A stretch of 46,791 nt of DNA from a virus: the IMG/VR virus record IMGVR_UViG_3300021962_000184, positions 1-46,791 of that record. One strand, 5' to 3'. The notes beneath the pieces are model-generated. The model did not search any database. It saw only the letters and a program-made list of their open reading frames with translations, and was not told the DNA's origin. The position numbers were made by a program, and so were the translations under genes. Positions 16,454-18,910 of this stretch are shown in pieces; the first letter of the stretch is position 1, and each line of letters opens with the position of its first letter.

Positions 16454-16520
16454 AGGATCGGTTCAGCAAACCAAAACGCTAAATCAATGCAATGATGTCT
16501 TAGCGGACAAAACGATCCTG
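16454..16520 (+). ncRNA. Y-like mini RNA, copy 3
   Basis: Terminal stem AGGATCG/CGATCCT (16454-16460 with 16513-16519) and the shared GTTCAGCAAACC motif, which can fold on itself (GGTT-CAGCA-AACC). A hairpin CGCTAA/TTAGCG (16477-16482 with 16500-16505) contains an inner ATCA/TGAT. The 3' side has ACAAAA before the stem. At 67 nt it lacks a tRNA-like domain and sits between tRNA-Ser and tRNA-Ala. Confidence 0.6.
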
Positions 16521-16528
16521 ATTAATAT

Positions 16529-16604
16529 GGGCTCTTAGCTCAGCTGGGAGAGCGCCTGCCTTGCAAGCAGGAGGTCAGGAGTTCGATCCTCCTAGGGTCC
16601 ACCA
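16529..16604 (+). tRNA. tRNA-Ala(UGC)
   Basis: Acceptor GGGCTCT/AGGGTCC-A-CCA; anticodon arm CCTGC-CTTGCAA-GCAGG (UGC); T-arm AGGAG-TTCGATC-CTCCT. The G-U at 3-70 required by alanyl-tRNA synthetase is present. Confidence 0.94.
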
Positions 16605-16610
16605 AGTTAC

Positions 16611-16686
16611 GGCTCATTGGTAAAGTGGTTAATACGTCTGCCTGTCACGCAGAAGAACACCGGTTCGATCCCGGTATGAGTCGCCA
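16611..16686 (+). tRNA. tRNA-Asp(GUC)
   Basis: Acceptor GGCTCAT/ATGAGTC with discriminator G (an Asp identity base) and CCA; anticodon arm TCTGC-CTGTCAC-GCAGA (GUC); T-arm ACCGG-TTCGATC-CCGGT. Confidence 0.92.
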
Positions 16687-16879
16687 TAATTGGGAGTTAG
16701 CCACCCAAGACCAGTGTCCACGATATTCTCATTCCAACTTGACACTCTAATAAACTTTTGTATTGAGCGTAACCCACTATCGTTAAGACTGGGAGGTTTT
16801 GAGGGATGTTTTACCGTAAAAAACATAACGGGTATTGATGCATACCTAATGAAGGGTTGGCCCCCAGCATCGAATTTAC
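16687..16879 (+). other. Gene-free spacer between tRNA-Asp and tRNA-Val
   Basis: 193 nt without a convincing gene. It holds a TTGGG/CCCAA hairpin at its start and a poor promoter-like pair (TTGACA 16739-16744, TATTGA 16761-16766, 16-nt spacer). A 10-codon ATG-TGA frame near 16806 is too short to judge. It may be remnant coding or an unrecognised RNA. Confidence 0.3.
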
Positions 16880-16954
16880 GCGGAATTAGCTCAGTGGTAG
16901 AGCAGGTGCTTTACACGCATCTGGCCGGGAGTTCGACCCTCTCATTCCGCACCA
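16880..16954 (+). tRNA. tRNA-Val(UAC)
   Basis: Acceptor GCGGAAT/ATTCCGC-A-CCA; anticodon arm GGTGC-TTTACAC-GCATC (UAC); T-arm GGGAG-TTCGACC-CTCTC. Confidence 0.9.
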
Positions 16955-16974
16955 ATTTTATCAATGAGGCAACA

Positions 16975-17475
16975 ATGATTAAAGTTATTGACGATCTTTT
17001 AGGGAAACAAGACTTTCAGCATATTCGTGATACGCTTATCGACAACTCTTTATTTCCTTGGAGATTCAACGATCATAAAGTGCACAAAGATGCAAGTGAT
17101 GATATTTACGATATGCAATTTGTTCATGTGTTCTATAAAGACTTTATGCCTCAGAGTGAATACTTTGATATCCTAAAACCTTTTCTTTTACTACAAAGAC
17201 CTAATGCTCTGATTAGAGTAAAGGCAAACCTGACCCCACCCACTCCTGAAATTTATCAGTACGGTATGCACACCGATGTTCCAACAAATGGTCTTCCTGT
17301 TAAGACTGCTGTTTACTACGTCAACGACAACGATGGTGCAACTGTATTTGAGAATGGTGAAAAAGTAGGTTCAGTAGCTAACAGACTTGTTGTCTTTGAT
17401 GCAGATATGTTGCATGCTGGCACAAGTTGTACTAATGCAAAGTGTCGTTGTGTAATCAACTTCAACTTTATTTAA
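16975..17475 (+). CDS. 2-oxoglutarate/Fe(II)-dependent oxygenase
   Basis: A 166-aa protein with the double-stranded beta-helix signature: YGMHTD (H99, D101), MLHAG (H147) and RCVINFNF (R158), the HxD...H iron triad plus the Arg that binds 2-oxoglutarate. Such small oxygenases are common in T4-like phages and hydroxylate protein residues or small molecules. The substrate is unknown. The ATG at 16975 is used because the upstream open frame runs through tRNA-Val. It lies between tRNA genes, with GAGG about 7 nt upstream. Confidence 0.82.
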   Translation: MIKVIDDLLGKQDFQHIRDTLIDNSLFPWRFNDHKVHKDASDDIYDMQFVHVFYKDFMPQSEYFDILKPFLLLQRPNALIRVKANLTPPTPEIYQYGMHTDVPTNGLPVKTAVYYVNDNDGATVFENGEKVGSVANRLVVFDADMLHAGTSCTNAKCRCVINFNFI

Positions 17476-17480
17476 GTTAT

Positions 17481-17557
17481 GCCCATGTAGGCCAATTGGT
17501 AGAGTCGGCGCGCTTAGAACGCGTATGTTGGGGGTTCGAGTCCCTCCATGGGCACCA
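17481..17557 (+). tRNA. tRNA-Leu(UAG) with short variable loop
   Basis: Acceptor GCCCATG/CATGGGC-A-CCA; anticodon arm GCGCG-CTTAGAA-CGCGT (UAG); variable loop ATGTT; T-arm GGGGG-TTCGAGT-CCCTC. Confidence 0.87.
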
Positions 17558-17579
17558 ATAATAGCATAAGGAGAGCATA

Positions 17580-17816
17580 ATGCGCGATAGAGCTTTTCGT
17601 CGGTTTCAAGAGTTCAAGAAGAAGAAATGGGTCCAGAAGTTTTTCTCTAGACATCGAGCTCGTGATCTGACTGACGCAGACGTTGGTGTTTATGCACACA
17701 CTCCTCATCTTTGTTCTTGCTATATGTGTGGCAATCCACGCAAGTGGTGGGATCAAAAGACCATCCAAGAGAAAAAGATGGATGAATATTACAAAGCTAC
17801 TGATGATGAGCTTTGA
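17580..17816 (+). CDS. Small basic Cys-rich protein (78 aa)
   Basis: A 78-aa protein: basic N-terminus (MRDRAFRRFQEFKKKKW), then HTPHLCSCYMCGNPRKWW, a CxCxxCGNPR motif found in small bacterial and phage proteins of unknown function that may bind zinc. AGGAG precedes the ATG. The TGA at 17814-17816 is immediately followed by tRNA-Leu(CAA). Confidence 0.72.
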   Translation: MRDRAFRRFQEFKKKKWVQKFFSRHRARDLTDADVGVYAHTPHLCSCYMCGNPRKWWDQKTIQEKKMDEYYKATDDEL

Positions 17817-17893
17817 GCCCTTGTAGGCCAATTGGCAGAGTCGGCAGTCTCAAAATCTGCATAGTGTGAGTTCGAGTCTCACCAAGGGCACCA
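17817..17893 (+). tRNA. tRNA-Leu(CAA) with short variable loop
   Basis: Acceptor GCCCTTG/CAAGGGC-A-CCA; loop CTCAAAA (CAA) on GCAGT/TCTGC (one T-T mismatch next to the loop); variable loop ATAGT; T-arm GTGAG-TTCGAGT-CTCAC. Confidence 0.85.
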
Positions 17894-17898
17894 ACAAT

Positions 17899-17987
17899 GG
17901 AGTGTGGGCCGGCTGGTAAGGCAGCGGTTTGCTAAACCGTACTACCTCGAAAGGGTAGAGTGGGTTCGATTCCCACACGCTCCGCCA
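17899..17987 (+). tRNA. tRNA-Ser(GCU)
   Basis: Acceptor GGAGTGT/ACGCTCC with discriminator G and CCA; anticodon arm GCGGT-TTGCTAA-ACCGT (GCU); long variable arm (CTACCTCGAAAGGGTAG). Confidence 0.91.
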
Positions 17988-17991
17988 ATAT

Positions 17992-18080
17992 GGGTGGTAA
18001 TCCTAGCTGGGGCTAGGGCTCGCCTGGAAAGCGATGCGCAGGCGCAAGTCTGTCAGATTCGATTTCTGTGCCACCCGCCA
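17992..18080 (+). tRNA. tRNA-Ser(GGA)
   Basis: Acceptor GGGTGGT/GCCACCC with discriminator G and CCA; loop CTGGAAA (GGA) on TCGC/GCGA; long variable arm (GCGCAGGCGC region). Confidence 0.9.
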
Positions 18081-18099
18081 AAATAATTTAAAATAGCTG

Positions 18100-18128
18100 T
18101 TGACCTTTGTTGCTGTAGACCCTATATT
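18100..18128 (+). promoter_or_regulatory. Early promoter with SD-complementary spacer
   Basis: TTGACC 18100-18105, a 17-nt spacer, TATATT 18123-18128. CCTTT-(G)-TTGC near the -35 can pair with GGCAA...AAAGG of the 5' leader, including the ribosome site of the next gene, as a bulged version of the arrangement at 28836. Confidence 0.7.
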
Positions 18129-18156
18129 AGGGGGGCAAGAGCGAAAGGAACGCACA

Positions 18157-18555
18157 ATGTACACGTTTGATGGCAATATCGTTTCGGATCTCCATAAGGA
18201 CGCCTATGGCTTCCGTCCTCGGGAATACTTCTGGGCTGAGTGGAACAACTCGTCAGATGCTGACAAGCAGCACATCTGGGATCATCTGCTGCAGGATCTT
18301 GAGGCTGCAATGGACCTCGAAGCTCAAGAGCAGATCGCTGCAATCAATGCTTTTGAGGTTGAGATTGCAAACGCTCTTGACTTTGGCGCGCAGACGCGCG
18401 AAGATGCAATCCGCTGGATTGTTCAAGGCCTGGACCTTGATGATGTAGACTTGATGTACGGTGGTGGCGCTATCTGCTACCGCAAAGGGCTGCCTTACAA
18501 GATGGCAGCAATCTTCGACAACGCTATCAACCAAATCAACTATGAGGTCGCTTAA
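18157..18555 (+). CDS. Unknown acidic protein (132 aa)
   Basis: A 132-aa protein beginning MYTFDGNIVSDLHKDAYGFRPREYFWAEWN, then a long helical acidic section. AAAGGAA lies 7 nt upstream of this ATG; an in-frame ATG at 18100 overlaps the promoter and is rejected. The FRPR...FWAEW segment recurs in small T4-like phage proteins of unknown role. It is followed after 1 nt by the next CDS. Confidence 0.65.
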   Translation: MYTFDGNIVSDLHKDAYGFRPREYFWAEWNNSSDADKQHIWDHLLQDLEAAMDLEAQEQIAAINAFEVEIANALDFGAQTREDAIRWIVQGLDLDDVDLMYGGGAICYRKGLPYKMAAIFDNAINQINYEVA

Positions 18556-18556
18556 T

Positions 18557-18787
18557 ATGAACGCTCAAACCGCTGGTCAGCTGTGCTTTGATATTCTTCG
18601 CAACGACTTTCATCGTCCCTTTGTCAATGGTAAAGCAAACCGTGACATGATCGAAGATATGATCACAATTGGTATGTTGAAGAGAGAGCTTGGTTATGTT
18701 GACCAAGAAACTGTTGACCTTGCTATTCAATTGGTTGATGATTTGATTATTCAGTATAAAAACGTAAGTAAAGATTTCGGAGTGTAG
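18557..18787 (+). CDS. Unknown protein (76 aa) overlapping tRNA-Pro
   Basis: A 76-aa helical protein (MNAQTAGQLCFDILRNDFHRPFVNGKANRDM...). It starts 1 nt after the previous stop, so it is translationally coupled. Its last 10 nt, including the TAG stop, are part of tRNA-Pro. No domain is recognised. Confidence 0.6.
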   Translation: MNAQTAGQLCFDILRNDFHRPFVNGKANRDMIEDMITIGMLKRELGYVDQETVDLAIQLVDDLIIQYKNVSKDFGV

Positions 18788-18854
18788 CTCAGTCTGGTAG
18801 AGCGCTTGGTTTGGGACCAAGATGTCGAGGGTTCAAGTCCTTTCACTCCGACCA
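18778..18854 (+). tRNA. tRNA-Pro(UGG), second copy
   Basis: Acceptor CGGAGTG/CACTCCG-A-CCA with C1-G72; anticodon arm CTTGG-TTTGGGA-CCAAG (UGG); T-arm AGGG-TTCAAGT-CCTT. Its 5' end overlaps the preceding CDS. Confidence 0.9.
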
Positions 18855-18860
18855 AGATTT

Positions 18861-18910
18861 AGGATCGATTCAGCAATCAATAGCTCGGATATAGCAAAAA
18901 GACGATCCTG
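18861..18910 (+). ncRNA. Y-like mini RNA, copy 4
   Basis: A 50-nt element: AGGATCG/CGATCCT stem (18861-18867 with 18903-18909), motif ATTCAGCAATC, a small GCT/AGC hairpin, and TAGCAAAAAG before the 3' stem strand. That last feature is shared with the Y RNA at 15035 (GTAGCAAAAAG). It is the shortest copy and sits between tRNA-Pro and the suppressor tRNA. Confidence 0.6.

Follow-up and report, generated by a model that had tools for sequence, protein, structure and literature searches.

What are the two short, structured elements that lie dispersed in the second tRNA bank of a viral DNA stretch of 46,791 nucleotides (IMG/VR virus record IMGVR_UViG_3300021962_000184, positions 1 to 46,791; hereafter the window), and do they belong with the Ro60-like protein that is encoded nearby? 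An earlier note on this DNA had described them as mini Y-like RNAs and had tied them to that protein. We consider it likely, with a probability of about 0.78, that they are small structured non-coding RNAs that are released from the tRNA-bank transcript and predicted to partner with the Ro60-like ring protein that the phage encodes. The tie to the protein is supported by two-way co-occurrence of RNAs and gene, by their co-orientation and by covariation of the RNA stem; it does not make them classical Y RNAs, as the Ro-binding motif of the TROVE type is absent. The copies of the element in the window and the presumed partner are as follows.

16454-16520, + strand: mini D, a class D mini Y-like RNA (AGGATCGGTTCAGCAAACC...GACAAAACGATCCTG, read from the sequence); outer arms 16454-16460 and 16513-16519, then an unpaired G at 16520; CAGCA at 16464-16468; inner hairpin CGCTAA 16477-16482 and TTAGCG 16500-16505, with flanks GTC 16497-16499 and GAC 16506-16508.
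18861-18910, + strand: mini E, a class E mini Y-like RNA (AGGATCGATTCAGCA...AAAAAGACGATCCTG, read from the sequence); outer arms 18861-18867 and 18903-18909, then G at 18910; CAGCA at 18871-18875.
13460-14884, + strand: gene for the Ro60-like protein, the presumed binding partner (474 amino acids; DUF2828 and DUF7788; PHROG 850 'RNA-binding protein').
13264-13340, + strand: longer copy A, outer arms AGGATCGT and ACGATCCT, found in most related loci.
13357-13446, + strand: longer copy B, a Y-like stem TTGGTTGG/CCAACCAG that closes tRNA-like D, anticodon and T arms.
15034-15154, + strand: longer copy C, a Y-like stem AGGATCA/TGATCCT that closes a permuted tRNA-like domain.
19719-19805, + strand: sixth copy F, with arms TGGATGG/CCATCCA and ACTGCAA replacing CAGCAA (covariance model E-value 0.009).

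Common to both minis and the three longer copies A to C are a terminal stem of 7 base pairs, the internal motif UUCAGCAA and a 3' side rich in A; the motif also includes the conserved unpaired G that follows the stem (at 16520 and 18910). The positions and parts of the minis given in the earlier note proved exact to the base, and its longer copies match as well; copy F, which it did not list, is kept in three related loci (L015, L021 and L025). All six copies are on the + strand; each lies within the second tRNA bank, next to it or near the Ro60-like gene, and no copies were found in the first tRNA bank (5071-9456). Mini D is flanked by tRNA-Ser (16355-16442) and tRNA-Ala (16529), and mini E by tRNA-Pro and a CUA suppressor tRNA. 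Neither mini scored above the Rfam gathering cut-off for tRNA (RF00005) and ARAGORN called no tRNA in either, in agreement with the earlier description of them as lacking a tRNA-like domain, and no other Rfam family matched either of them, even at E-values up to 5. Single-sequence folding of the two minis was better than that of shuffled sequences (z -2.75 and -2.27; 4/200 shuffles each). The exact AGGATCRNTWCAGCA motif occurs four times on the + strand of the window and not at all on the - strand or as a reversed control. A covariance model whose seed alignment included copy D and excluded copy E recovered E with an E-value of 6e-7, B with 5e-5 and A with 1e-3. A match at 42075-42187 was rejected as a chance match within an open reading frame.

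The earlier note had named a lack of homologues in related phages as an argument against itself; this argument falls away, because the search and count outside the window found homologues in many phages. The figures given here for other phages refer to distinct sequences, not to events; contigs in IMG/VR overlap one another, and phages that are related do not count as independent. The GGATCG-stem pattern was found in 114 viral stretches of IMG/VR, compared to 8 when its pentamer was permuted. In loci oriented by the gene, CAGCA gave 194 distinct matches on the gene strand against a single one on the opposite strand, and one-letter variants were rare, except for CCGCA (27 on the gene strand versus 0) and CTGCA (15 versus 1). 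To judge the stem independently of its own sequence, we collected, in the fetched IMG/VR loci, all contexts of GTCTTAGCGGACAA, a 14-mer that lies in the middle of copy D. CAGCA stood upstream of it in 35 of 38 distinct contexts, and in 33 of those 35 all seven outer pairs were present, formed by about ten arm types (e.g., AGGATCG, GGGATAA, AGAGTTG, TGGATGA, TGGATGG, AGGCATG, AGGGTTG, AGGATTG, AGGATAG and others). An alignment of 46 class D sequences showed the outer-stem cells to be paired in 99.7% of cases, with double changes in six of the seven pairs and a covariation score that was reached by 0/500 shuffles. As these sequences had been pre-picked for at least 6/7 outer pairs, it is the 14-mer test that carries the weight; outer-stem covariation was also seen again with a generic sequence set. 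Thus the claim that compensating stem changes reveal selection for pairing, which is weak from the window alone with its three arm types, becomes overwhelming across related phages.

Mini E could suggest a less functional origin. Its ends are similar to those of copy C, with the tRNA-like domain of C deleted from the middle, and a 3' half-copy is present in locus L005, as might be expected if the minis had arisen by decay of longer tRNA-like Y-type RNAs, had no function of their own and persisted through recombination in the tRNA bank. Such decay does not fit the class D alignment, where the GUC..GAC core is invariant in 46 sequences while the outer stem covaries, nor the relatives of copy E: one is identical (L032), and two carry a compensated AGGATCA/TGATCCT stem (L034 and L035; G-C to A-U), so that the stem survives a double change. 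The minis are also the majority of copies across loci, and we regard decay as very unlikely.

The RNAs and the gene were found together when searched from either side. DUF7788 was detected in 33 of 38 records selected by the RNA, mostly the longer of those records being examined, and in none of four control-pattern records; the RNA-selected records without it may be fragments. Starting from the protein, 60 of 74 loci contained copies, 124 of them on the gene strand versus 3 on the opposite strand. A generic model of the RNA matched 9 of 11 named DUF2828 phages, with all 18 matches on the gene strand, and matched none of five named phages without the gene (T4, 44RR2, phiKZ, S-PM2 and SPO1). The arrangement varies, as copies directly follow the gene in Whirlwind and precede it in Campylobacter phage NCTC12673, and KVP40 has one copy within its tRNA bank.

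Proximity to tRNA genes led us to weigh a simpler role, namely that the minis are processing signals, whose hairpins direct RNase to cut between neighboring tRNAs with no need of a partner protein; the earlier note had likewise offered that they mark cut sites between tRNAs. More distinct minis lie within 150 nucleotides of a tRNA (56%) than random positions do (30%), copies within 500 nucleotides of a tRNA share its strand in 242 of 243 cases (which also counts for the reading as ring partners), and the flanks of the minis are AU-rich, like single-stranded RNase E sites. However, the nearest tRNA is over 500 nucleotides away for 87 of 251 distinct minis, and most tRNA pairs, including those of the whole first bank, have no mini between them. 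In Listeria phage cka15, a promoter-like sequence is followed by three tandem copies and then by the Ro-like gene. The conserved middles would be superfluous for cutting, and neither they nor the strict tie to DUF2828 would be explained. The cut-site proposal thus found no support, and processing signals as the whole account appear quite improbable.

The protein that the RNAs accompany is encoded in 682 of 50,697 phage records, as judged by DUF2828 genes, and its carriers include Felix O1-like, KVP40-like, Listeria, Campylobacter, Staphylococcus and mycobacterial phages. The Pfam TROVE family (PF05731) matched none of 18 records, the window and named phages among them, and a sequence search with the DUF2828 profile against solved structures gave no significant match. 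Alignment of profiles built from 19 DUF2828 proteins and nine TROVE proteins (hhalign) extended over 406 columns with a probability of 88% and an E-value of 3e-6, covering the N-terminal region and the von Willebrand A domain; the TROVE profile used matches solved Ro60 and Rsr. Shallower alignments reached only 43% probability, compared to 88% with the deeper ones. The depositors of phage OC made the same Ro-like assignment using HHpred, and the authors of the CKA15 study likewise regard that phage's protein as Ro-like (PMC12282133). By profile-profile comparison, which alone makes the relationship visible, the window protein is distantly related to Ro60 over its full length and is not a TROVE member in Pfam's sense. 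Just upstream of its gene, positions 9512-13180 encode a 1222-amino-acid protein (PHROG 18612) with a weak match to PARP-type ADP-ribosyltransferases (E-value 2.8e-5, below Pfam's cut-off).

For this phage we infer transcription, processing, binding and function of the RNAs, in the following manner. The tRNA-bank transcript would be cut at AU-rich flanks to give RNAs of 50-70 nucleotides. Their constant part, consisting of the 7-8-base-pair stem, the 5' internal loop UNCAGCAA, the A-rich 3' side and the trailing G, would form the docking platform, with the stem and CAGCAA docking on the ring. The middle would be an exchangeable effector: the two minis have a small hairpin there, the longer copies have tRNA-like domains, and many relatives have a mimic of an anticodon stem-loop. 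With the ring occupied by RNAs that present different middles, the set would act as its gate and guide it towards various RNAs or enzymes, the role that Y RNAs have for Ro60. It is reasonable to suppose, as the earlier note did, that the RNAs load the Ro-like protein with different neighbors, although this role is putative. Promoter-like TTGACC-17-TATATT sequences occur at 15949 and 18100, ahead of the stretches containing D and E, in a number near that expected by chance. In CKA15, RNA sequencing revealed three extremely active non-coding regions on the same strand within 2 kb upstream, and the Ro-like protein is present in virions (PMC12282133).

Several observations weigh against these RNAs being partners of the Ro-like ring. 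Fourteen of the 74 gene-bearing loci had no copy inside the fetched flanks, and two of the 11 named gene-bearing phages were missed by the generic model. The most abundant transcript region of cka15 (26,236-26,727) does not contain the motif; the other two active regions may hold it. Lastly, GNCGAAN0-1G, the CGAAG-type Ro-binding motif, was found in the first 30 nucleotides of 0/374 distinct phage RNAs. This motif, of the GGGCCGAAG type, is the signature that defines classical Y RNAs. Its absence sets the phage RNAs apart from that class, and we read them as an analogous, parallel Ro/Y-RNA-like set for a divergent Ro-like ring. In Chloroflexota TROVE loci the related pattern GGGCCGA[AC]G occurred 12 times in 42 kb, whereas 808 kb of DUF2828 loci contained none.

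The layout nevertheless resembles that of bacterial YrlA-type Y RNAs. Ro60-associated Y RNAs are further marked by binding to the Ro protein and by tethering PNPase. Both have paired 5' and 3' ends with an adjacent internal loop of conserved 5' sequence, and both systems (YrlA with Ro60 or Rsr) combine a variable effector domain, several RNAs per genome and a Ro-like ring gene nearby. Copy C has a permuted tRNA-like domain in the order T arm, acceptor, loop, acceptor, D arm, which agrees with the layout and arms of YrlA (PMC8394870), and permuted tRNA-like domains resembling it were also found in Whirlwind, Felix O1-like and Enterococcus phages. Unlike the YrlA type, the phage RNAs carry their own loop motif in place of the GGGCCGAAG of TROVE-adjacent RNAs, their partner is not matched by Pfam TROVE, and a tRNA-like domain, present in copies A, B and C, is missing from the minis. 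With vertebrate Y RNA (Rfam RF00019) they share a paired-end stem and a Ro60-like ring partner, and they differ in having no Rfam match at E-values up to 5. One Chloroflexota TROVE locus (L285:900-1030) showed a bacterial Y-type element (CCTTGCC..GGGCCGAAGG) apparently in place of the anticodon arm of a tRNA that is otherwise unpermuted and lies upstream of the TROVE gene, with similar elements nearby.

Putative phage Y RNAs have been reported from mycobacteriophages (Chen et al. 2014, as cited in PMC12282133) and from Listeria phage CKA15 (PMC12282133). The RNAs described here resemble them in protein family, as Whirlwind and cka15 both have DUF2828 matches, and in neighborhood, and CAGCA copies were found in both phages. 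The longer forms may be partly described already in Chen et al. 2014; in the accessible part of the literature on putative phage Y RNAs we found no description of a common CAGCA element, of a mini class or of its spread. Nor did we find the DUF2828-associated RNAs described as one family; this large family appears to be uncatalogued. The sequence rule of WGG-N4, CAGCAA and a paired CCW-G makes the partner RNAs findable in most DUF2828 phages, and laboratory strains support the growth of several such phages. Together these data suggest that many phages make Ro/Y-RNA-like complexes of their own, in which the RNA parts can be exchanged, and they provide a second, independent Ro/Y-like pairing in which to ask what Ro rings do.

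The variable middles bear on what the complexes may be for. In class D the inner hairpin is CGCUAA/UUAGCG, GCUA/UAGC or GAUCA/UUGAUC, and the flanking GUC and GAC are invariant. A class D pairing of the AGC of CAGCA with the inner-strand GCU, proposed by RNAalifold, was rejected because CAGCA is also invariant in classes without such a GCU; a pseudoknot of CGCUAA-GUC-UUAGCG-GAC is doubted, as UUAGCG is followed directly by GAC, leaving no linker that could cross a 6-base-pair helix. A canonical anticodon stem-loop (5 base pairs, loop Y-U-N-N-N-R-N) was found in 76 of 248 distinct minis of other phages, compared to about one expected from shuffled middles. A CUUNUAA loop within a stem-loop of 5 base pairs and 7 loop nucleotides was present in 52 of the 248, of the Thr UGU (27), Lys UUU (17) or Arg UCU (8) type. 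In the window, the Y-like stem of copy A encloses D-arm-like and anticodon-arm-like hairpins and an GCCGAAAGGC hairpin, and the anticodon-arm-like loop is CUUGUAA, of the Thr UGU type.

Constant hairpin ends around variable middles, at tRNA-bank positions that differ among related phages, might also be expected of cis elements, that is, of single-stranded-DNA or RNA recombination cassettes that aid the movement of tRNA genes between phages. Cassettes of this kind would leave no reason for the invariant, strand-specific unpaired CAGCA and trailing G or for middles holding anticodon-loop mimics, and they are in our estimation extremely unlikely. Under the preferred reading of the minis as RNAs of a Ro-like ring, the mimics connect the family to phage-host conflict over tRNA cleavage. 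Since many minis carry the CUUNUAA loops of Thr, Lys and Arg tRNAs, those bound to the ring could absorb or sense anticodon nucleases that attack such tRNAs. A phage-wide Ro-like ribonucleoprotein with exchangeable RNAs might thus use the minis as baits or decoys for host anticodon nucleases, a tentative idea that we hold to be possible though doubtful. Precedents for decoys exist: the tRNA-like domain of YrlA has been proposed to inhibit an anticodon nuclease competitively (PMC7790460), and PARIS is defeated by a phage tRNA-Lys variant (PMC11455837).

Larger relatives were also encountered. A class of 150-168 nucleotides within the stem-CAGCA family has a middle that is conserved and does not resemble a tRNA (L193:5576-5739, L199:1660-1813, L208:279-439). 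Near DUF2828 genes in KVP40 (L167, 501-747 and 2298-2413) and S13 (L165, 13890-14132), sequences of 113-124 nucleotides are annotated as 'pseudo' or 'other' tRNAs and are possibly permuted tRNA-like members of the same RNA family.

Within the tRNA bank itself, a tRNA with a CUA anticodon lies beside mini E (18920-18997; Pyl according to ARAGORN) and is likely an amber suppressor; the table-15 open reading frames of the window, inspected on its account, gave no clear sign of UAG recoding. Two tRNAs with a long variable arm of the serine type (16355-16442 and 17992-18076) were missed by ARAGORN and gave only sub-threshold tRNA-Sec matches. Two related, structured-looking leader elements, at 6325-6505 and 16040-16192, lie inside or before the two tRNA banks; both contain TTGAAAATTTAG and TTTTCACRTGCA, with GAAAAYAG returning at the 3' end, and they are possibly antitermination elements or another family of non-coding RNA.

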